Of a stretch of DNA of 55,564 nucleotides, positions 3,111 through 55,564 are shown in pieces. Positions within the stretch are counted from its first letter, which is position 1, and the number at the start of each line of letters is the position of its first letter. The DNA comes from a virus: positions 1 through 55,564 of the IMG/VR virus record IMGVR_UViG_3300034251_000009; one strand, given 5' to 3'. Both the position numbers and the translations under genes were made by a program. The notes under the pieces are model-generated. The model worked only from the letters and a program-made list of their open reading frames with translations. It searched no databases and was not told the DNA's origin.

Positions 3111-3566
3111 TTAGGCCACCACGTCGGGTCGCATACCCAGCTTTCGGTGGGCAGCGTCCATCTGCTCCGTCGTCGGCCGAGCGGGCAATTTGGCGCCCGG
3201 CTCGCGAAGGAACCACCCCAAGAACTGGCGCAGAACGTCTGTTCGCGTCAGGCCCATGGCCGCAGCCGCAGCCCCGAACTCGTCCCAGAGGGCATTGCTC
3301 ACCCGCAGCGATCTGATAGGCGTCTTCCCGCGCTTCTGTACGTTGCGCAGCGCCCCCTCGGTTCGGATGGCCTCGGTTTCCTCTGCGTCGGCAGTGGCTC
3401 GACTCTCGTGCCAGACGACCTCGATACGGGCCTGCTTGCTCCACCAGTCGGCATTCTTCTCGTGGTATCGCCAGCGAGTCATCAGATCCACAGTGATGCC
3501 GACGTAGATCAGGTTGTCCCCGGCGTCGAAGAAGCGGTAGACCGCTGTCCTCTCGTTCTCCGTCAT
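3111..3566 (-). CDS. GIY-YIG nuclease-domain protein with C-terminal ribbon-helix-helix-like region
   Basis: 151 residues. Residues 8-45 show a divergent GIY-YIG core: VYRFFD, then IYVGIT, then a basic TRWRYH. The C-terminal region around 85-120 (RSLRVSNALWDEFGAAAAAMGLTRTDVLR, read in pieces) looks like a ribbon-helix-helix DNA-binding segment. The architecture suggests a DNA-targeted nuclease or a regulator with a nuclease-like domain. The start overlaps the upstream HTH gene by four bases (ATGA). It lies directly opposite the rightward transfer-like module, so a regulatory or mobility role for that module is possible. Confidence 0.8.
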   Translation of the reverse strand: MTENERTAVYRFFDAGDNLIYVGITVDLMTRWRYHEKNADWWSKQARIEVVWHESRATADAEETEAIRTEGALRNVQKRGKTPIRSLRVSNALWDEFGAAAAAMGLTRTDVLRQFLGWFLREPGAKLPARPTTEQMDAAHRKLGMRPDVVA

Positions 3567-3851: not shown

Positions 3852-3880
3852 TTGACACACTCTCTGTCGGGGGTTACTGT
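3852..3880 (+). promoter_or_regulatory. Rightward sigma-70-type promoter of the transfer-like operon
   Basis: TTGACA at 3852-3857, exactly 17 bases of spacer, then TACTGT at 3875-3880. The next rightward gene starts at 4004, giving a leader of roughly 115 bases. The -10 box is part of the palindrome at 3875-3890. Confidence 0.75.
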
Positions 3881-3890
3881 CTCATCAGTA
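3875..3890. promoter_or_regulatory. Operator candidate overlapping the rightward -10 box
   Basis: TACTG at 3875-3879 and CAGTA at 3886-3890 form a perfect inverted repeat with a 6-base spacer over the -10 region. Binding would block rightward transcription. The divergent HTH gene at 3563-3817 is the obvious candidate regulator. Confidence 0.55.
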
Positions 3891-4003
3891 GACATTAACC
3901 GTCAAGGTCAGTGGAACGAAGAACGACCGGAAACGAAGGCGGGCCCGGCAGGTGTGTCAGCACCTGTTACCCGGACCCTTGATCGCCCCATGGAGGCGAC
4001 CCG

Positions 4004-4297
4004 ATGAACATTCTTGCAGTAGATACCTGCCCCCGGTGGTGTTCGGGCGCCCATCTTCCGTCGCCCGACGGCCCCGTCCACATCAGCGTCGACCAGACCC
4101 TGGTTGCCACTTCCCCGTGCGGGATGGAGTCGACGGAGGTTTACGTCGCCGTCGAGCAGGTCGGTAGCGGCCCGGCTGCGGTCCGCCTCGAAGGTGCGGG
4201 TTCCGCGCCGATGACGCCGGCGCAGGCGATGCAGTTGGCCGCGACGTTGCAGGCAGTCGCGTTCGCCGCGGTGGCCGGGGAGCGGGTGACCCGATGA
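4004..4297 (+). CDS. DUF6907-like hypothetical protein
   Basis: 97 residues. The N terminus CPRWCSGAH followed by an alternating-strand region and VRLEGAGSAPMTPAQAMQLAATL matches the pattern of DUF6907 proteins, common on actinobacterial plasmids and integrative elements. It is the first gene of the rightward operon. Its stop overlaps the next start (ATGA). No enzymatic role is known. Confidence 0.8.
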   Translation: MNILAVDTCPRWCSGAHLPSPDGPVHISVDQTLVATSPCGMESTEVYVAVEQVGSGPAAVRLEGAGSAPMTPAQAMQLAATLQAVAFAAVAGERVTR

Positions 4298-4590
4298 CCG
4301 CGACGCTGACCGAGACGCTGTACACCCGGCCGATCCCGTTCGTCCGGGAGGCGGCCCAGCCGGGTGACTGGATCAACGTGGCGAACGACGACCGTCCGCC
4401 GTACTGGCAGACCCTGATCGCCGTGGTGGCCTGCGAGGACTCCCCGGTCGACGAGGGTGACTGCGAGGGTGACTGCGCGTTCGTGCTGCACCTGGAGGCG
4501 GACCCGGGCGAATACGACGTCGAGTGGTGGCACGTGTCCTGGAGCGAGTTCGACGGCATCCAGACCAGCCTCCCGGCGGTGGCCCGATGA
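4294..4590 (+). CDS. Hypothetical protein, acidic
   Basis: 98 residues, acidic, with an EGDCEGDCAF segment encoded by a tandem 12-base repeat at 4453-4476. The C-terminal half (WWHVSWSEFDG) looks like a small beta structure. ATGA overlaps with both neighbours place it firmly in the operon. Function unknown. Confidence 0.75.
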   Translation: MTATLTETLYTRPIPFVREAAQPGDWINVANDDRPPYWQTLIAVVACEDSPVDEGDCEGDCAFVLHLEADPGEYDVEWWHVSWSEFDGIQTSLPAVAR

Positions 4591-4736
4591 TCGCCACGTT
4601 CCTGCTGAATTTCCTGCTCGCCGCGGTCGGCCTGACCGTGATCGTGGCCCCTCTCGCGGTGTACGCGCTGCGGGAGCTGGCGCCGGCGTCGCAGCCCCGC
4701 CGCTCGTTCGCCCTGGCCGGGGGTGGGCGGCGATGA
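4587..4736 (+). CDS. Small single-span membrane protein
   Basis: 49 residues. One hydrophobic helix covers about residues 2-26, followed by a basic, glycine-ending tail. Start chosen at the ATG that overlaps the previous stop (ATGA). Such small membrane proteins commonly accompany Spd-like genes in actinomycete transfer operons. Confidence 0.7.
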   Translation: MIATFLLNFLLAAVGLTVIVAPLAVYALRELAPASQPRRSFALAGGGRR

Positions 4737-4981
4737 GGGCCCGTACCCGCAACATCTTGACCGTGGTCTCGCTGGTCTACATCTCGGCGGTCGCCTACCT
4801 GTTCACCGTGCTGTCGTTGCGGACGTTCAACGCGCTGCTGGCGACGGTGGTGGTGCCGCTGGTGTGGCTGGTGTGGTCGTTCTGCCGCTGGTCGGCGCAC
4901 CAGCATTCGGAGCGGTGGGCTCGTGACATCGAGAAGGTCCACGGCAGCCGGCCGGTGCGTCAGGGGGTGACTGCCCGATGA
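4733..4981 (+). CDS. Small two-span membrane protein
   Basis: 82 residues. A basic start (MRARTR) is followed by two hydrophobic segments at about 9-28 and 34-52 and a polar, charged tail. ATGA overlap on both sides. Probably an inner-membrane partner of the SpdB-like protein encoded next; specific function unknown. Confidence 0.72.
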   Translation: MRARTRNILTVVSLVYISAVAYLFTVLSLRTFNALLATVVVPLVWLVWSFCRWSAHQHSERWARDIEKVHGSRPVRQGVTAR

Positions 4982-6213
4982 CGATCACCGACAGCGGGCG
5001 CCTGTCCGAGCAGGAGATGGCCAAGGCGCGGGAGTTGTACGCCAGCGGGGTCAGGTCGAAGGACGGTCTGCGCAAGGGCCTGGGCGTCGCGTGGGCCAAG
5101 GCAGTCGAGGCTCACACCCGGCTGACCGCCGAGGACGACGAGCGCCGGCGGCAGCAGGTCGAGGAGCGCCGGTCGCGGCTCGTGAAGTTGCGACCACGGA
5201 AGAGCCGGGCGTCGCGTCTGCCGGTCCGTCGCACACCTCTTCCGGAGGCCCCGGTCTCTCCTGCTGTCGAGGCGGTCCCTGAGCTGTTGTCTCCGACCGC
5301 CGAGATGGTTCCGGTAGAGGTGCCGACTCCGGATTCGGTAGCCGTTCCGGCCTCTACTGGAGGCGCTGGTTCGGTGAAGCCGACGACGATCGTGGCGTTG
5401 GTCCTGTCGATCTCTGCAGCTGCGGTCATTGGCGTGTCCGCCCCGGCTTTGCTGGCCCTTTCCGGGCGGGCCGCGGTCGCTGCCGCAGCCGTGGCGGTGC
5501 TCGCTTTGGTCGGCGCGGTCTGGTCGACGGCGACCTTGGCCCGGGCGCTGGTCGCCGGTCGCACGGCGCGGGACGTGGCGCTGGACCTGGCGTCGTGGGC
5601 CGTGGCGGCCGTGGCGGGGTTCCTGGCCGCGTATGGGCAGGTCAAGTTCGCTGAATGGGCGGGCGTGACCGGCTGGGAGAAGTGGCTTGTTCCCGGCATC
5701 CTCGAGCCGGCCGTGGTCGTGCTGTTGCTGCTGGCGAACCGGCGGGTGAAGCGGCGCCGGGCCGGGTTCCCGGCCAAGCCGATCGGCAAGTTGCTGGCCC
5801 TGGCGGCTCTTCTGGGCGGGTTCGCCGTCTACACCAATGTGGTTCACACCGGTGGCAAGGCCGGGCTGGTGTTCGGCGCCGCGACGGTCGTGGGTCTGAT
5901 CCTGTGGTGGGTCAAACTCCAGGACGATGCGGCCCCTGACGACTGGGATGACGCCCCGCAGTCCAAGCGGCTCTCCCGGAAGACCTCCCGGTACCGGCTT
6001 CTGCGCTGGTTGATCCTCTTCCCGCAGACCCGCCGGGCGTGGCTGATCAGCCTTGATCACTCCATCTCCGACGCGGAGGTGGGTTTGGATCTGGCGCGCC
6101 GCTGGCGGCGGTCTTTCGACGAGTCCCGAGACGCCGGTGAGAGTCGCCGTAAAGCTCGCCGGGACGCATCCGTGCAGGTCGACAAGTACCTGCTCAACGA
6201 GAAGGAGAGCTGA
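4978..6213 (+). CDS. SpdB/DUF2637-like transfer membrane protein
   Basis: 411 residues. The N-terminal 50 residues (SEQEMAKARELYASGVRSKDGLRKGLGV, read in pieces) look like an HTH; then comes a basic, proline-rich linker to about 130. Several hydrophobic helices follow at roughly 137-157, 164-188, 198-220, 232-252 and 263-300. A basic cytoplasmic tail ends in LLNEKES. This architecture matches DUF2637/SpdB proteins of actinomycete conjugative plasmids and AICEs, which support plasmid spread in mycelium. It is unusual in a phage and, with the downstream translocase, defines a transfer-like module. Confidence 0.8.
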   Translation: MTITDSGRLSEQEMAKARELYASGVRSKDGLRKGLGVAWAKAVEAHTRLTAEDDERRRQQVEERRSRLVKLRPRKSRASRLPVRRTPLPEAPVSPAVEAVPELLSPTAEMVPVEVPTPDSVAVPASTGGAGSVKPTTIVALVLSISAAAVIGVSAPALLALSGRAAVAAAAVAVLALVGAVWSTATLARALVAGRTARDVALDLASWAVAAVAGFLAAYGQVKFAEWAGVTGWEKWLVPGILEPAVVVLLLLANRRVKRRRAGFPAKPIGKLLALAALLGGFAVYTNVVHTGGKAGLVFGAATVVGLILWWVKLQDDAAPDDWDDAPQSKRLSRKTSRYRLLRWLILFPQTRRAWLISLDHSISDAEVGLDLARRWRRSFDESRDAGESRRKARRDASVQVDKYLLNEKES

Positions 6214-6214
6214 G

Positions 6215-6346
6215 GTGGCCTACTGCAACAGGTGTTGTGCCCCGATTGCGTCGACGGGTTGGTGTTTGGACTGCCTGGAGGATCTCGACAAGTTGATGAC
6301 CAAGCGGCGCAAGAACAAGAAGCAGAGAACGACGAGGGAGAACTGA
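6215..6346 (+). CDS. Micro-protein with two CxxC-type pairs
   Basis: 43 residues from a GTG two bases after the previous stop, preceded by GAAGGAGAG. Cysteine pairs CNRCC and CLDC are spaced like a small zinc ribbon, followed by a very basic tail (KRRKNKKQR). Too short for confident family assignment. First of eleven micro-genes. Confidence 0.65.
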   Translation: MAYCNRCCAPIASTGWCLDCLEDLDKLMTKRRKNKKQRTTREN

Positions 6347-6347
6347 G

Positions 6348-6494
6348 ATGGCTCTGTCGAAGAGTGCCGCCGAGAAGGTGGCCAAGGAGAAGGAGCGGGC
6401 GTCGCTCGGGATGGGCGATTCGCCGGCGAAGGCGGCCCGGTACGCGCAGGAGGTGCGGGCGTACGCCCGCCGCGAGCGCGAGAAGGGCAACTGA
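6348..6494 (+). CDS. Basic micro-protein
   Basis: 48 residues, rich in Lys, Arg, Ala and Glu, predicted to be mostly helical (AAEKVAKEKERASL, then AARYAQEVRAYARRERE). Starts one base after the preceding stop with a GGGAG site. Possibly nucleic-acid binding; function unknown. Confidence 0.65.
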   Translation: MALSKSAAEKVAKEKERASLGMGDSPAKAARYAQEVRAYARREREKGN

Positions 6495-6495
6495 G

Positions 6496-6678
6496 ATGGC
6501 ACGCACGACCGGCTGGGACGGCAAGCCGCTGTCCGAGGCGGACAAGAAGTTCTTCGCCCTGCGTCGATCGGGCTACGAGGGCCCGATCGACCAGGACGGC
6601 AACAAGGCGACCAAGGGTGAAGCCGCGGACATCCTGCGGAGCATGGCCCGGCGCCGCGGTGAGAAGACCGACTGGTAA
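6496..6678 (+). CDS. Hypothetical micro-protein
   Basis: 60 residues (MARTTGWDGKPLSEADKKFF at the start), ending in ARRRGEKTDW. It has a defined charged helical pattern and starts one base after the previous stop. No known motif. Confidence 0.7.
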   Translation: MARTTGWDGKPLSEADKKFFALRRSGYEGPIDQDGNKATKGEAADILRSMARRRGEKTDW

Positions 6679-6767
6679 CCGGCGACGGGCCGGGAGTGGA
6701 GTCCCGGCCCGTCTCTATCAACCCCGAGGCCGCGTGGCGGCGGCCCGAACTACAGGAGGAACCAATC

Positions 6768-6890
6768 ATGTCGCAGCAGGCGCTGGATCGCCAGCACGAC
6801 GAGATCAAGGAGCGGAACCGTCAGCGGCGGCTGGCGACGATGCAGGAGGCGGCGAAGCAGGCCGAGGCCCGTGCGGCCAAGCGCCGGTGA
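6768..6890 (+). CDS. Helical basic micro-protein
   Basis: 40 residues, almost wholly charged and helical. Start chosen at 6768 because AGGAGG lies eight bases upstream; a longer in-frame reading from 6696 lacks such a site. The stop overlaps the next GTG (GTGA). Confidence 0.65.
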   Translation: MSQQALDRQHDEIKERNRQRRLATMQEAAKQAEARAAKRR

Positions 6891-6991
6891 GCCCGTCGCT
6901 GGCGCGCCGCCTGGAGGCCAAGGAGGCCGCACGGCGCGCGGAGCACGAGAAGGCGCAGAAGCGGATCGAGGCTCGGGCGAAGGCCGCCTGA
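6887..6991 (+). CDS. Helical basic micro-protein, 34 residues
   Basis: Starts at a GTG overlapping the previous stop and encodes an Ala/Lys/Arg/Glu helix ending in ARAKAA. Its last codons are part of the 44-base direct repeat. Very short; supported by tight coupling and composition only. Confidence 0.5.
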   Translation: MSPSLARRLEAKEAARRAEHEKAQKRIEARAKAA

Positions 6992-7019
6992 GCAGGCAGA
7001 ACGGAGTGAGTGAGATGGC
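6976..7019. repeat. 44-base direct repeat, copy 1
   Basis: Identical to 7249-7292. It covers the 3' end of the 34-codon gene, the intergenic ribosome site (ACGGAGTGAGTGAG) and the first five bases of the gene at 7015. Confidence 0.95.
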
Positions 7020-7194
7020 AGGCAAGAAGTACACGGTCGAGATGACCAACAACAACGGTCAGAAGGTTCCCATCACGCAGGTTCCGTTGGAGGGAGGCGT
7101 CGCCCGGGACCTCGCCGAGAAGATGCGCAAGCAGCTGCCGGCGGGATCGAGCGCCTACTTCGAGGTGCACGACGCCAAGGGCGGCAAGCGCTGA
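7015..7194 (+). CDS. Hypothetical small protein, beta-rich
   Basis: 59 residues. Unlike its helical neighbours it reads as a compact domain: KKYTVEMTNNNGQKVPITQ, then a helix ARDLAEKMRKQL, then SAYFEVHDAKGGKR. The last 18 bases (AAGGGCGGCAAGCGCTGA) are identical to the end of the gene at 7288-7428, and both genes share the 44-base repeat at their starts. Function unknown. Confidence 0.75.
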   Translation: MAGKKYTVEMTNNNGQKVPITQVPLEGGVARDLAEKMRKQLPAGSSAYFEVHDAKGGKR

Positions 7195-7205
7195 CGGTTT
7201 CCGTG

Positions 7206-7234
7206 GGTGCCCGGATCGAGCGGGTTCGGGCACC
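7206..7234. repeat. Stem-loop between micro-genes
   Basis: GGTGCCCG at 7206-7213 pairs with CGGGCACC at 7227-7234, leaving a 13-base loop. It lies in the only sizeable gap among the micro-genes and could be a processing or attenuation element. There is no U tract. Confidence 0.5.
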
Positions 7235-7248
7235 GGTGGTAACCGCCA

Positions 7249-7292
7249 GGCGAAGGCCGCCTGAGCAGGCAGAACGGAGTGAGTGAGATGGC
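7249..7292. repeat. 44-base direct repeat, copy 2
   Basis: Identical to 6976-7019. Here the upstream coding function is lost and the copy serves as leader and start of the gene at 7288. Confidence 0.95.
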
Positions 7293-7428
7293 GAAGGACG
7301 CACAGAAGGCCACCGGCAAGACCACCTCCGAGAAGGGGACGTCCGGGCCCGAGGAGGTCCGTCGGCTGCACCCGGGACAGCGGTGCGGTACCGGGTGCTT
7401 CCCCCAGCAGAAGGGCGGCAAGCGCTGA
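7288..7428 (+). CDS. Micro-protein sharing both ends with its neighbour
   Basis: 46 residues. The start lies in copy 2 of the 44-base repeat and the end is the same 18 bases as the gene at 7015-7194, but the interior (RRLHPGQRCGTGCFPQQ) is unrelated. The stop overlaps the next ATG. Function unknown. Confidence 0.65.
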   Translation: MAKDAQKATGKTTSEKGTSGPEEVRRLHPGQRCGTGCFPQQKGGKR

Positions 7429-7580
7429 TGGGCAAGACGACGACGGAGCTCGGCGACGACGGCCGGCCGGTGACGTACAAGTCGACCAGGGCGCGCCGTA
7501 AGAGCGAGTCGCGGCTGATCCCGCTCACGCCGGGCCCGCAGACACGCCTGCAGAGGATCGTCCGGGCGGCGGTCGGCTGA
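7428..7580 (+). CDS. Basic micro-protein
   Basis: 50 residues starting MGKTTTELGDDGRPVTYKST and continuing strongly basic (RARRKSESR). Overlaps its neighbours by one base at each end (TGATG). No known domain. Confidence 0.65.
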   Translation: MGKTTTELGDDGRPVTYKSTRARRKSESRLIPLTPGPQTRLQRIVRAAVG

Positions 7581-7741
7581 TGGGCGCGCAGAACTGCCGG
7601 GTGTGCGCGCGGAGCACGGCCTGGTGCGAGTGCTCGAAGGCCGTCAGGGCCTCACAGGGTCAGCCGACGCAGGGTCCTTCCGAGAACTTCCTGCTCAAGG
7701 AGCTGAAGCGGAGCAAGACCGAGAAGAGGGGAAAGCGCTGA
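7580..7741 (+). CDS. Micro-protein with N-terminal cysteine cluster
   Basis: 53 residues. Cysteines in CRVCARSTAWCEC suggest metal binding; the C-terminal half is basic and ends KRGKR. Its stop shares one base with the next ATG (TGATG). Function unknown. Confidence 0.65.
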   Translation: MGAQNCRVCARSTAWCECSKAVRASQGQPTQGPSENFLLKELKRSKTEKRGKR

Positions 7742-7875
7742 TGGGGCCGATAGGGCTGTTGTGCTGGCTGTTCGGCCACAAGGACCGGCCGCACTACGCG
7801 GCGACACCCCGGCGGCGGCTGCTCGGAGTTCAGTGCGACCGCTGCCTGCGGGTCGATCGCACGGAGGAGAAGTGA
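7741..7875 (+). CDS. Small zinc-ribbon-like protein
   Basis: 44 residues. CWLFGHK and, after a short spacer, CDRCLRVD give a C-x4-H plus CxxC arrangement, a pattern I recognise in small actinobacterial and phage proteins of unknown role. Overlaps its neighbours by one base (TGATG). Confidence 0.7.
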   Translation: MGPIGLLCWLFGHKDRPHYAATPRRRLLGVQCDRCLRVDRTEEK

Positions 7876-8036
7876 TGGGACGCAAGGAAGACGTCAAGGC
7901 GTTCAAGGACGCCAAGGCCAAGCAGGACGCGTACGTCGAGGGTCTGCCGAAGGGCAGCCCGGAGACCGCGAAGTACCTGGAGCTGAACCGCAAGACCAGC
8001 GCGGCGCTGGAGAAGCTGCCCTGGTACCGCCGGTGA
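7875..8036 (+). CDS. Hypothetical micro-protein
   Basis: 53 residues with regular helical charge pattern (KAFKDAKAKQDAYVEGL, then AKYLELNRKTSAALEKLPWYRR in pieces). Last of the micro-genes before the hairpin at 8052-8084. Function unknown. Confidence 0.68.
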   Translation: MGRKEDVKAFKDAKAKQDAYVEGLPKGSPETAKYLELNRKTSAALEKLPWYRR

Positions 8037-8051
8037 TCCGGTAACACCGGC

Positions 8052-8084
8052 GGGCGCGACCGAGATAGCAGCTCGGTCGCGCCC
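8052..8084 (+). terminator. Perfect 13-bp hairpin between the micro-genes and the translocase gene
   Basis: GGGCGCGACCGAG at 8052-8064 pairs perfectly with CTCGGTCGCGCCC at 8072-8084 around a 7-base loop, followed by CTTCCCCTTG. It looks like an intrinsic terminator with a weak U tract. No promoter is visible between it and the translocase start at 8115, so it may act as an attenuator setting translocase level. Confidence 0.75.
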
Positions 8085-8114
8085 CTTCCCCTTGCACACA
8101 GAGGAGCACCCAGC

Positions 8115-9854
8115 ATGGCAGAGCAGAAGGACGAGCACAGCCTCGGTGAAGTGTTGTGGCGTTACGTCGCAGGGCGCCCCCTGGATGGCCGCGACGGATA
8201 CCCGTACCTGCGCGCGGGGGCCGGCCTCGTGGCAGGCTGGCAGCGGCAGGCGTGGCGTCTTGTCGTCCCGACGGCGGGTGTTGCGACTGCCATGGACCCT
8301 GACTTCCAGCACGTCACCGGCGTTGGCGGTCTCGCTCTGCTCGCGGCGGTTAGGGGCCGCCAGCAGGTCGTCCGGCGGCGGTTCCACCGTGAGTACATCG
8401 CCCCGACGTTGGCTGCGATACAGCCGCCGCTGGGGATGCAGGGCGATGGCGTGACCCTGTACGTGGATGCGTCCCTGGGCAACCTGACCCCTCGGCTGGC
8501 CAAGCCGTTGTCGCCGGCGGAGGAGCGTCTGCGCGTCCTCTACGGCGAGCGGATCGAGCCGGTCGTGCGGTGGTTGCCGGAGCAGATACAGCGTGGTCTG
8601 TGGGCGGTGCAGCGTGCGGCACGGCCGGCGACATCGCGCATGGAGGTGTTCCGGCGTCCGGGTGAGCAGTTGGGTCCGCGTATCGAGCTGGTCGCGCGGA
8701 CGCCGTATCTGACCAGTGAGCAGCGGCTGCTCGTGTCGTCGATCATCAACAGCAAGATTCCGGTGTCTGACCTGGTGGAGTCGTGGCATCAGGTCGGCCC
8801 GAAGGTGACCGCCCGGTGGGTCGTGCGTAAGCGGCCGCCGTCGACCGTCGGGTACGACCTGGTTCTGGAGCACATGGCCCATCTGAAGGAGTGGGAGTTC
8901 TACATCGGCCAAGGTGCCGGGAACCGGCCGGTGGTCATCTCGCTGAAGGACGACTCTCCGCACATCGCCGTCAGCGCAGGTACCGGCGCCGGGAAGAGCG
9001 TGCTGGCCATGCTCATCGCGGTGCAGATCCTGGCTCGCGGTGGCGAGGTGCTGATCCTGGACCGCAAGGGCTCTCATCGATGGGCACTCGGCATGGAGGG
9101 CGTGGACTACTGCACGAAGGCCCACCAGATGCACGAGGCGCTGATCAAGTCGGCCGCGGAGGCAGATCAGCGCAACGACGATGCCCTGCACGAGGAGGAG
9201 GACTGGGATCCGGGCAAGCGCAAGCTGGTGATCTGCGAGGAGCTGAACGCGACGATCGGTCAGCTGAACAACTACTGGGCGGAGATCCGGGAGAAGAGCG
9301 ACCCGAAGAAGTCGCCGGCGGTGTCGGCCCTGGCTGATCTGCTGTTCATGGGTCGTTCGGCGAAGTACAACGTTCTGGCGATCGCTCAGATGCTGACGGC
9401 CCGGGCGATCGGCGGGCCGGAGGCGCGGGAGAACTTCGGGGTGCGGTGTCTGGCCCGGTACACCTCGAACAACTGGAAGATGCTGGTGCCGGAGGCTGCG
9501 ATGCCCCGGTCGTCACGGACGCTGGGCCGGTGGCAGGTAGTAATCGGTGGGCAGGCTACTGAAGTTCAGGTGGCCTTCCTGACGAACGCGCAGGCTCGCG
9601 CCCTCGGAAATCCGCGAAAAGACCCTGATAGCGCCCTGGGCAGCAATGTCCCTGGGGACGGGGACATGATGACCTTGCGGGACGCGATCGATGCCGGTGT
9701 TTTGCCCTGGTCGTACGAGGCGGCCAAGAAGCGGCTGCAGCGCGATGTCGGTAACCCACCGTCATCGCGCGGGAAGCGGGCCAACGCGGATCTGTACGCG
9801 CGCGCCGACCTGGCGGCGTGGGTGGTCCGGTCCCGGCAGGAGGTTCCGTCGTGA
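8115..9854 (+). CDS. FtsK/SpoIIIE-family DNA translocase, TraB/Tra-like
   Basis: 579 residues. Walker A is GTGAGKS at about 289-295, in SAGTGAGKSVLAML. A Walker B-like KLVICEE lies near 370-376. FtsK-like features include a hydrophobic LILDRKGSHRWAL after Walker A and AQMLTARAIGG downstream. The N-terminal 250 residues are not classical FtsK and contain only weakly hydrophobic stretches. The C-terminal 60 residues (DAGVLPWSYEAAKKRLQRDVG, in pieces) may form a winged helix for DNA recognition, as in Streptomyces TraB, which moves double-stranded plasmid DNA between mycelial cells. Next to an SpdB-like gene this supports a transfer role. No relaxase or Rep gene accompanies it. Confidence 0.85.
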   Translation: MAEQKDEHSLGEVLWRYVAGRPLDGRDGYPYLRAGAGLVAGWQRQAWRLVVPTAGVATAMDPDFQHVTGVGGLALLAAVRGRQQVVRRRFHREYIAPTLAAIQPPLGMQGDGVTLYVDASLGNLTPRLAKPLSPAEERLRVLYGERIEPVVRWLPEQIQRGLWAVQRAARPATSRMEVFRRPGEQLGPRIELVARTPYLTSEQRLLVSSIINSKIPVSDLVESWHQVGPKVTARWVVRKRPPSTVGYDLVLEHMAHLKEWEFYIGQGAGNRPVVISLKDDSPHIAVSAGTGAGKSVLAMLIAVQILARGGEVLILDRKGSHRWALGMEGVDYCTKAHQMHEALIKSAAEADQRNDDALHEEEDWDPGKRKLVICEELNATIGQLNNYWAEIREKSDPKKSPAVSALADLLFMGRSAKYNVLAIAQMLTARAIGGPEARENFGVRCLARYTSNNWKMLVPEAAMPRSSRTLGRWQVVIGGQATEVQVAFLTNAQARALGNPRKDPDSALGSNVPGDGDMMTLRDAIDAGVLPWSYEAAKKRLQRDVGNPPSSRGKRANADLYARADLAAWVVRSRQEVPS

Positions 9855-10102
9855 GTGGCGGCGACCTGTCGGGGTTCTTGATCGGCTTCGTGTCCGGTGC
9901 GGTCGTGTTCTGGCAACTGTCGCGGGTGTCCGAGCGGTTCCGTCGGGCCCGGCGGGACCTACGCGCGGCGCGTAAGGGCATCCGGACGCTGATCGAGATG
10001 GTCATCAGCCGTGGGTGGCAGGCCGTGAAGCTGTGGCTGTTGGTCACCGCCGTCCTAGGCGTCGTTGTCGCCGCCTGGCTCGGCAGCCGATCCGGCAAGT
10101 AA
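9851..10102 (+). CDS. Two-span membrane protein downstream of the translocase
   Basis: 83 residues from a GTG overlapping the translocase stop (GTGA). Hydrophobic helices at about 6-24 and 60-78 flank a strongly basic loop (RFRRARRDLRAARKGIR). Coupled translation and position suggest a membrane partner of the cytosolic translocase. Last gene of the rightward operon. Confidence 0.75.
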   Translation: MSGGDLSGFLIGFVSGAVVFWQLSRVSERFRRARRDLRAARKGIRTLIEMVISRGWQAVKLWLLVTAVLGVVVAAWLGSRSGK

Positions 10103-10137: not shown

Positions 10138-10173
10138 GCCCCGCCCCACGCCGGAGAAGGCATAGGGCGGGGC
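10138..10173. terminator. Bidirectional terminator between the converging operons
   Basis: GCCCCGCCC at 10138-10146 pairs with GGGCGGGGC at 10165-10173, with an inner GCC/GGC pair. TTT follows on the plus strand and the AAAA at 10132-10135 gives a U run for leftward transcripts. It ends both the rightward transfer-like operon and the long leftward late operon. Confidence 0.85.
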
Positions 10174-10258: not shown

Positions 10259-10612
10259 CTACGCCCGATCGGCGGTGAAGGCCCGCTGAGCGGCCGCCGA
10301 GGCGCCGACGGGCTTCCACAGCCCGAAGTGCACGACGGCCGCGATCGCGAAGTTGACGGCGATGCTGATGGCCACCGGTACGAGCGCGAAGTCCACCGCG
10401 GTGTTCTCGGCCTGGAGCCACGCCTCGAGGAAACTCTTGATCGCGGCGGCGGCGAGCAGCAGCACGGCCTTGACGCCGGGGCTGGTCGTCCGGGTGGTGA
10501 CGATCCCGACGAGCAGCGGGAGCAGCACGGTGACGGCGAGGCTGAGCAGGCCGCTGATGCTGGACGGGTCGAAGCCGTAGACGGGCAGAGCGGGGATGTC
10601 GGACTCGGTCAT
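10259..10612 (-). CDS. Holin-like membrane protein
   Basis: 117 residues. A short polar N terminus (MTESDIPALPVYGFD) is followed by three hydrophobic helices at about 18-40, 46-66 and 73-98, and a basic tail. Size, topology and location at the end of the lysis region fit a holin or a similar lysis membrane protein. It is the last gene before the bidirectional terminator. Assignment is by architecture. Confidence 0.65.
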   Translation of the reverse strand: MTESDIPALPVYGFDPSSISGLLSLAVTVLLPLLVGIVTTRTTSPGVKAVLLLAAAAIKSFLEAWLQAENTAVDFALVPVAISIAVNFAIAAVVHFGLWKPVGASAAAQRAFTADRA

Positions 10613-53955: not shown

Positions 53956-55415
53956 TGGCCGGTAGTCGTGCACGGCTGGCCGCGGTGCCGCAACGGCCGC
54001 TGCGGGTGGTGCTCTACGTGCGGGTCAGCGCGCTGATGGGCCGCGGGGGACGCGAGAACTTCCACAGCCCGGACGTGCAGATCGGTGCGATGCGCCGGCT
54101 GACCGAGAAGATGCGCGAGATCGCCGTCGTCCAGGACCTCGACCGCGGCGGTCGCAACTTCGACCGTGAGGGCATCATCCGGATCCGCCGTATGGCCGAG
54201 CGCGGTGAGGTGGACGCCCTGGCCGTCTATGACGTCAGCCGTCTCGGCCGCAACGTGCGCGAGTCCCTGGAGTTCCTCGCCGACCTCGCCGACCGCGGGG
54301 TGGTCATCCTCAGCGCCAGCGAGCACGTCGACACCTCCGATCCCGCAGGCCGGCTGATGCTGACCAACATGCTGGCCATCGCCGAGTACCGCTCGGATGA
54401 GATCGGCCGGTCCTGGTCGGCGGCGATCGCCCGGCGCGCCGAGAAGGGCGTGCACCACGGCAACCCGATCGGCTACACCCGCGTGGACGGCAAGCTGCGC
54501 CCCGACCCGATCCTGGGCCCGGCCGTGGCAAAGATGTGGGCCGACTACGCCGCCGGGCTGCCCATTTCGCAGATCTGCCGCGAGCTCGCCGCGGTGCGGG
54601 GCGGGAAGATGCAGGCCAGCATCGTCAAGAAGGCGTTCCGCCGGCCCGTCTACCTCGGCCATGTGGTCGCCGACGGGCAGGTCGTCGTCCGTGACGCGCA
54701 CCCCGCGCTGGTCGACCAGGCCACCTGGGAGATCGTGCAGTTGCGTCTGGCCGCCGACCGGACCACCCCGCCCCGGGCGCTGCAGGTGACCTGGGCGCTG
54801 GTCGGTATCGCCTTCTGCCCCTGCGGTGCCCGCCTGCAGCGCAACCCACGCCTGCGCAAGGGTGTGCTCGAGCAGCGGCTCAAGTGCGGCAAGGGCCCGT
54901 CGCGGGGCATCGTCGGCGAGCACTGCCCGGGTATCGGGTTCCCGATGATGGACCGGATCCAGGACGAGGTGCTGCGCCAGGTCGCCGAGTACGTCCGGCA
55001 GTTGCGTACCGACGACGTGGCCCGCTCCGAGCAGCTGCTGCGCCGCACCAACGCGATGGCCGACGGCCGGGCGCTGCGCCGCCGCCTGTCCCACGTCCAG
55101 GAGGCTGTCGCCAAGCTGGCCCGGTCCTGGGCCCTGGGCGACCTGACCGACGACGAGTTCCGCCCGGCGACCGCGCAGCTGCGCTCGGAGGCGGAGGCGT
55201 TGCGGGCCCGGCTGGGCGAGCTCGGTGATGTCGAGTCGCGGCCCACCCCGGAGGAGGCGGCCTCGGCGGCGGAGGCGCTGGTGGAGATGTGGCCGGACAT
55301 GCTGGTCTCGGAGCGGAACCTGGCGCTGCGGGCGTTGGTGGAGCGGGTGGTGGTCAGGCGCGCGGATCGGTGGCGTGAGCCGGAGGCCGACCGGGTCATG
55401 ATCACCTGGCGTTAG
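53955..55415 (+). CDS. int: Large serine integrase
   Basis: 486 residues. Catalytic domain start LYVRVSALMGRGG with Ser25; VYDVSRLGRNVRESLEFL and DPAGRLMLTNMLAIAEYRSDE are further resolvase-domain signatures. A recombinase domain (GYTRVDGKLRPDPILGPAV) and a zinc ribbon (CPCGARLQRN ... LKCGKG ... HC) with coiled coil follow. It would recombine attP with a host attB without high-energy cofactors. attP should lie within the short noncoding gap next to its 3' end. Confidence 0.95.
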   Translation: MAGSRARLAAVPQRPLRVVLYVRVSALMGRGGRENFHSPDVQIGAMRRLTEKMREIAVVQDLDRGGRNFDREGIIRIRRMAERGEVDALAVYDVSRLGRNVRESLEFLADLADRGVVILSASEHVDTSDPAGRLMLTNMLAIAEYRSDEIGRSWSAAIARRAEKGVHHGNPIGYTRVDGKLRPDPILGPAVAKMWADYAAGLPISQICRELAAVRGGKMQASIVKKAFRRPVYLGHVVADGQVVVRDAHPALVDQATWEIVQLRLAADRTTPPRALQVTWALVGIAFCPCGARLQRNPRLRKGVLEQRLKCGKGPSRGIVGEHCPGIGFPMMDRIQDEVLRQVAEYVRQLRTDDVARSEQLLRRTNAMADGRALRRRLSHVQEAVAKLARSWALGDLTDDEFRPATAQLRSEAEALRARLGELGDVESRPTPEEAASAAEALVEMWPDMLVSERNLALRALVERVVVRRADRWREPEADRVMITWR

Positions 55416-55525
55416 TGCACGTCTGCGGGCTCTGACTACCGTGCAGGCAGTCCATCATCCAACACCGTTGTGCCTGGTCAAGGCCCTTTCGGGGTGGCGT
55501 TGTCACCACGCGGCAGGTGACCCCT
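55416..55525. other. Noncoding segment after the integrase; expected attP region
   Basis: On the circle this segment (continuing as 1-88 of the left copy) lies between the integrase stop and the converging leftward gene. Serine-integrase attP sites usually flank the int gene, so attP is expected here by position. A 6-bp inverted pair (TGCACG at 55416-55421, CGTGCA at 55439-55444) is visible, but the roughly 50-bp dyad typical of attP cannot be fixed without the attachment-site pair. Confidence 0.45.
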
Positions 55526-55564
55526 CTATTCGGTGGGGTCCTTCACCTCGGTTGCGGTGTCACC
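55438..55564. repeat. Terminal direct repeat of the contig (circular overlap), right copy
   Basis: Exact copy of 1-127. Joining the copies places the end of the serine integrase (55415) 110 bases upstream of the end of the leftward gene at 89-682, leaving one short noncoding segment where attP is expected. Confidence 0.95.

Follow-up and report, generated by a model that had tools for sequence, protein, structure and literature searches.

A putative plasmid-type DNA transfer module in a temperate siphovirus and its relatives in Micromonosporaceae

Why would a temperate siphovirus carry, among its own genes, a set resembling the transfer genes of actinomycete plasmids? The question is raised by the IMG/VR record IMGVR_UViG_3300034251_000009, a stretch of 55,564 bases from a soil phage which was analyzed at full length and is called the window here. 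In it, a rightward block of genes (4004-10102), with the integrase side on one flank and the lysis genes on the other, encodes a membrane protein with a DUF2637 domain and a predicted DNA translocase. An initial annotation of the window had interpreted this block as a conjugation-like module operating with a TraB-type protein. According to our analysis, which builds on the genes, their homology and synteny, their place in phages that are complete or bounded by attachment (att) sites, their sharing with integrative elements and the purifying selection acting on them, the block is best read as a conjugation-type double-stranded DNA (dsDNA) transfer or spreading module, of plasmid origin and maintained in temperate siphoviruses of mycelial Micromonosporaceae. 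We assign to this reading a probability of about 0.58.

The translocase gene (8115-9854, + strand) encodes a protein of 579 amino acids (aa) with the Walker A motif GTGAGKS at residues 289-295. Pfam identifies it as a P-loop translocase of the DUF87/HerA type (1.3e-9) and returns no match to FtsK_SpoIIIE (PF01580) even at an E value of 1. When aligned by hhalign with the Tra proteins of pFRL6, pFRL3, pRL2 and their relatives, it gave a Prob of 100 (E 1.4e-82) over 504 columns (profile positions 8-573), the N- and C-terminal parts included. Membership in the classical TraB family was rejected since, against Tra of pIJ101 and pJV1, phmmer found no match and hhalign reached a Prob of 1.9; an origin from host FtsK or EccC was rejected as well, the similarity by hhalign to 12 host PF01580 loci being weak and limited to the P-loop. 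On sequence grounds, the window translocase is deemed to belong to the pRL2/pFRL type of plasmid Tra and not to classical TraB. Of the FtsK/TraB-type translocase initially proposed, what stands is a P-loop DNA translocase homologous to plasmid Tra, although one outside the TraB family proper. A grouping with phage or host FtsK proteins of non-transfer role, set beforehand as the case that would speak against a transfer function, was not observed.

Among PDB entries, the best match by sequence is TcpA (4.7e-5), the conjugation coupling protein of pCW3. An AlphaFold2 model built from 26 homologues has a mean pLDDT (predicted local distance difference test) of 68, with much of the motor region higher, and its fold matches are led by TcpA (1.4e-11), followed by FtsK motor domains (3.5e-8), type VII EccC and HerA (2e-3). 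TcpA of Clostridium perfringens pCW3 acts with a type IV-like secretion complex, whereas no such complex was seen in the window. Residues 515-577 (9657-9845, + strand) form, with good confidence in the model, a winged-helix-like C-terminal domain with a putative role in DNA recognition; the HTH_17 domain was weakly matched in the equivalent region of three homologues, while the window's own protein has no match.

The label DUF87/HerA invites a different explanation, namely superinfection exclusion or defence, in which the membrane proteins and a HerA/FtsK-like ATPase would block or destroy incoming DNA, and prophage accessory genes are indeed often exclusion systems. However, the fold match to HerA (2e-3, against 1e-11 for TcpA) is weak enough for a HerA defence ATPase to have been rejected, no nuclease or NADase partner adjoins the motor, and the same gene pair is found in plasmid and integrative-element homologues, so that we regard such a function as improbable.

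The membrane protein of the pair (4978-6213, + strand; 411 aa) has six predicted transmembrane (TM) segments and scores over the PF10935 (DUF2637) cut-off (23.8 versus 22.8 bits), as do its counterparts in the related loci L005, L007, L014 and L016; its N-terminal part matches the partner in L002 at 44% over 126 aa. It is the most constant companion of the translocase. In the actinomycete linear plasmids pRL2, pPR2, pFRL6 and pFRL3, a DUF2637 gene precedes the homologous translocase in the same order as in the window, although in pFRL6 and pFRL3 another gene annotated for conjugal transfer follows downstream, with no counterpart in the phages. The first description of this gene as SpdB/DUF2637-like is confirmed for DUF2637, but SpdB of pIJ101 and pSN22 gave no match to DUF2637, and the attribution of a Spd role therefore rests on gene position (as in pSacid_B21-078-2) and on the pairing with the translocase.

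Spd proteins mediate intramycelial spread (PMC4170104; PMC3583192), and the Spd functions of Streptomyces plasmids comprise septal spread and stability (PMC4170104). The constancy of the DUF2637 partner could thus also be explained by spreading only, whereby phage DNA would cross the septa of one lysogenic mycelium, to the benefit of stability or colonisation, and reach no new recipients. We consider this unlikely, since the homology of the motor reaches plasmid Tra itself and is not confined to spread genes, and the module also occurs in integrative elements that have no virion route.

Is the block truly part of a phage? Bases 1-127 of the record are repeated exactly and directly at 55438-55564 (no strand), and the simplest reading of the record is a whole phage genome in circular form, 55,437 bp long. 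With the circle closed by this repeat, the tra module is embedded in a temperate siphovirus that is complete and free of host DNA, and a contig artefact or host flank around it is ruled out. PHROGs assign the tape measure, major head protein, portal, TerL, primase/polymerase, PolA and integrase, together with a holin (10259-10612); head, portal, terminase, tape measure, lysis and integrase genes, which define a temperate siphovirus, are hence all present in one complete genome. The integrase is a serine integrase (54006-55415, + strand; phrog_95, 1.4e-80) that adjoins the left end across the circle junction. These assignments bear out the initial description of a complete siphovirus with its own integrase, replication and virion genes, which was also correct in reporting no relaxase, as searches of the window for the families PF03432 and PF08751 found none.

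Homologues of the translocase were identified in 12 IMG/VR contigs and 14 bacterial loci, and at least 15 phages or prophages besides the window carry the module. All of the bacterial hosts are Micromonosporaceae (14 of 14 loci), and a survey of that family yielded a full-length translocase match in 12 of 201 genomes. Across the phage contigs, identity to the window translocase is 67-85%, while the endolysin and tape measure of the same contigs share about 27-51%; these contigs were selected by their translocase, and a translocase so alike beside an endolysin and tape measure so diverged points to exchange of the module between phages rather than slow evolution. The identity of 68-85% in seven viral contigs and a ratio of nonsynonymous to synonymous substitution rates (dN/dS) of 0.12-0.28 show that the gene is not there by chance, and the ratio clearly indicates purifying selection; the open reading frame is intact in 26 of 26 close homologues examined. 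Where enough sequence is available, the phage contigs repeat one gene order: a regulator, a tyrosine or serine integrase, small helix-turn-helix genes, the membrane protein and the translocase, often followed by a two-TM protein and then by convergent holin, endolysin and tail genes.

For a sample independent of the translocase, we collected relatives of the endolysin, obtaining 41 distinct loci in which the sequence extends 6 kb or more past that gene. A recognisable Tra homologue, in some cases a distant one, was present in 12 of them; in the others that carried any of these genes, the slot held a DUF2637-type partner with another P-loop ATPase (three loci), the partner alone (two) or an ATPase only (two). 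In the phage locus L062 (11235-16379), a DUF2637 gene accompanies a 658-aa P-loop protein which ends in a MarR-like winged helix and is unmatched by either Tra family, possibly a third motor type in the same slot.

Two genomic contexts are telling, the first of them in Actinoplanes italicus DSM 43146. Its first tra-bearing prophage (45.9 kb; contig 3, 204,569-250,491) is flanked by 43-44 bp copies resembling the 3' end of a tRNA gene, with integrase, membrane gene and translocase just inside the left att boundary. Head, portal and terminase belong to PHROGs other than those of the window, which means that the module is common to siphoviruses of different structure. Inserted in tandem at this att sequence is an element resembling the actinomycete integrative and conjugative elements (AICEs), which encodes a tyrosine integrase, a DUF3987/DnaB protein, a 723-aa protein and a DUF2637 protein. 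The 723-aa protein has no Pfam match and is read, from its P-loop, as a classical AICE-type Tra; the DUF2637 protein is 62-64% identical to those of the phages L007 and L005. The possibility that the module belongs to the neighbouring AICE instead of the phage was rejected, as the att boundaries place the tandem element outside the prophage. The whole arrangement (G004:C3:204569-267395; loci L023 and L051-L054) contains the tRNA-like att sequence in three copies. The IMG/VR record 2728369518_000002 (57 kb) is longer than the prophage and probably fuses it with the AICE-like element.

A tandem of integrative element and prophage at one att site would make capture easy, and the module might accordingly be passive cargo, a chance-captured AICE fragment without function in the phage. 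Such an account is already disfavoured and, in our judgement, very improbable: the intact reading frames and low dN/dS given above speak against it, as does the recurrence of the module at the same slot in unrelated siphoviruses.

Endolysin sampling also led to a second A. italicus prophage (L098, 100% match), whose motor is a classical TraB homologue, 32% identical to pJV1 Tra over 451 columns and matched by the NCBIfam model plasmid_TraB at 7e-108, although under that model's strict cut-off. Between the two prophages the membrane partners share 58% identity, and the motor of the first is of the pRL2 type. One plasmid-type motor has thus been replaced by another beside the same partner, which is the strongest argument for a function in DNA transfer or spreading. 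The initial interpretation is sustained in part: the DUF2637 and Tra set matches, at full length and in order, the pairs of actinomycete plasmids and those of phage-free integrative elements from the same host family, and sits in complete or att-bounded phages, and it is this sister arrangement, rather than the window with its motor outside the TraB family, that uses a TraB homologue.

In the second context, the module is not confined to phages. In seven Micromonospora and Plantactinospora loci, the membrane protein and a translocase of the window family (66-71% identical) are encoded beside small genes. Within the sequence examined around these loci, six show a serine integrase or a host gene that is recognisably interrupted, and virion genes were found in none. 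For one element, comparison with an intact homologue showed that 13.2 kb had been inserted into yifB, duplicating about 22 bp. In the phylogenetic tree, the translocases of the integrative elements form one clade, nested within the phage radiation and sister to two prophages (100/99), so the module has moved between phages and non-viral integrative elements.

In Micromonospora parastrephiae contig_56 (L022:8014-17719), an element of about 10 kb combines the membrane gene and the translocase with an integrase-like gene, a regulator, an AAA_25 ATPase and one major head protein of the HK97 type, beyond which no virion gene was seen. It has the appearance of a phage satellite that encodes a capsid and carries a transfer module. 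Similar host genes follow a tra-bearing phage contig (L027:13998-15753) and a phage-free tra element (L020:19956-21708), which suggests that the two share an integration locus.

Several results weigh against a transfer module. None of the genes in question occurs in 22 of the 41 endolysin-related phage loci, and among 50,697 named phage records the only translocase match is a partial one, in Dagobah. We found no published mating experiment with a pRL2-type Tra in the literature searched. TraB-type transfer requires one FtsK-like protein and a clt (cis-acting locus of transfer) site (PMC4170104; PMC3583192), and the check for a clt or TraB recognition sequence array that the initial annotation had called for yielded no convincing clustered 7-10-mer repeat in the window; a few clusters exceed expectation, but these fall within coding or GC-rich regions and relatives do not have them in common. 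Separately, no phage in the named records has the DUF2637 partner, no named phage was found with a TraB homologue of the L098 type, and our literature search found nothing on DUF2637 in phages.

As Dagobah is a lytic phage genome, and ftsK has been listed among the actinophage genes that may affect host development (PMC10117723), the translocase could instead serve the phage internally, in segregation, DNA positioning or control of host development during lysogeny or lysis. We give this little credence, because the family falls with plasmid Tra rather than host FtsK, the module is present in elements without phage genes, and many related phages do without it.

In a transfer or spreading module, the DNA substrate, the direction and timing of its movement and transfer itself, all of which we infer, could be pictured as follows. 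The prophage would excise as a circle by its own integrase and be replicated by the phage's own polymerase and primase. Tra, anchored by N-terminal helices and aided by the DUF2637 protein and small membrane partners, would bind phage DNA through its C-terminal winged-helix domain and pump the double-stranded circle into an adjoining cell or compartment by way of a hyphal tip or septum, and there the circle would integrate; neither lysis nor virions would be needed.

The nearest precedent is pZL12 (phage ZL12 of Streptomyces, 90 kb), which like the window joins phage genes and an FtsK/SpoIIIE-like gene in one element. PMC3583192 presents it as a plasmid-phage with reported conjugal transfer genes, and PMC7157519 as a temperate phage that is extrachromosomal, so that a phage capable of transfer is, as a mere idea, no novelty. 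Its FtsK-like protein has no detectable relation to the window translocase by phmmer or hhalign. The window encodes an integrase; in contrast to the extrachromosomal pZL12, its relatives are integrated prophages, and the module is common to integrative elements. What is new is a group of integrating siphoviruses with a plasmid-type transfer slot, shared with integrative elements of the same hosts, in which motor families are exchanged.

Like AICEs, the window has an integrase, a dsDNA translocase, Spd-like proteins and site-specific integration, and its module is common to AICE-like elements of the same hosts; unlike them, the phage has a full virion and lysis programme. The definition of AICEs uses a PF01580-type translocase (PMC3218068), and of its elements the window contains the integrase and no PF01580 Tra; as to replication, for which AICEs use a RepSA, RepAM or Prim-Pol initiator, PHROGs identify the window's own polymerase/primase and PolA. 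With classical TraB (pSN22, pJV1, pIJ101, pSVH1) the window protein has in common an FtsK-fold dsDNA motor and a C-terminal winged helix, predicted in the window's case.

If the module transfers DNA, the boundary between prophage and integrative conjugative element blurs in filamentous actinomycetes. One element could then spread through lysis and virions but also pass straight into adjacent hyphae, for instance into recipients that phage particles cannot infect, and programs that sort contigs into viruses and conjugative elements would misassign it. More tentatively, at somewhat less than even odds, the temperate siphoviruses of Micromonosporaceae may include a widespread dual-mode class, propagating by virions and by hyphal dsDNA transfer of the prophage, with a fixed slot between integrase and lysis genes, a motor swappable between two families with no detectable relation in sequence, a partner that is kept, and a cassette traded with AICE-like elements. 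The two A. italicus prophages, with a pRL2-type motor and a TraB homologue, respectively, and related membrane partners, are testable systems.

As regards the rest of the block, all on the + strand, it opens with a DUF6907-like gene (4004-4297; 97 aa), present as first annotated although its PF21848 match (E 4.6e-5, 24.4 bits) is just below the 26-bit cut-off. It is followed by genes for a 98-aa protein (4294-4590), joined to both neighbours by ATGA overlaps, a 49-aa protein with one predicted TM segment (4587-4736) and an 82-aa protein with two (4733-4981). Together with an 83-aa two-TM protein whose gene overlaps that of the translocase (9851-10102) and is kept at the same place in L005-L008, the latter two account for the small membrane partners, and the DUF2637-like gene is likewise where it had been placed. 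Consecutive genes are joined by ATGA overlaps from 4004 to 6213, which fits the proposed 6-kb operon over that run; ahead of the translocase, however, the stretch is broken up by two perfect inverted repeats of 12-13 bp (6684-6713 and 8052-8084). The latter, of 13 bp (no strand) and just upstream of the translocase, is a candidate regulatory or cis site. The same stretch holds a series of genes for small, mostly basic proteins (40-60 aa; 6496-8036), and an exact 44-bp repeat (6976-7019 and 7249-7292), covering a ribosome-binding region and the start of a small gene, is evidently a recent duplication inside the tra block. A strong inverted repeat (10138-10173), with a terminator score on the - strand, separates the tra block from the convergent lysis genes.

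In the divergent region preceding the tra block (3852-3894), the sequence TTGACA-N17-TACTGT overlaps the palindrome TGTCT-N7-AGACA; it was not called by the consensus scan and is possibly a repressor-controlled promoter. Further upstream (3111-3566), a GIY-YIG nuclease domain and a DNA-binding domain of the Arc-like kind are fused in one protein; they are encoded by separate genes in L004.

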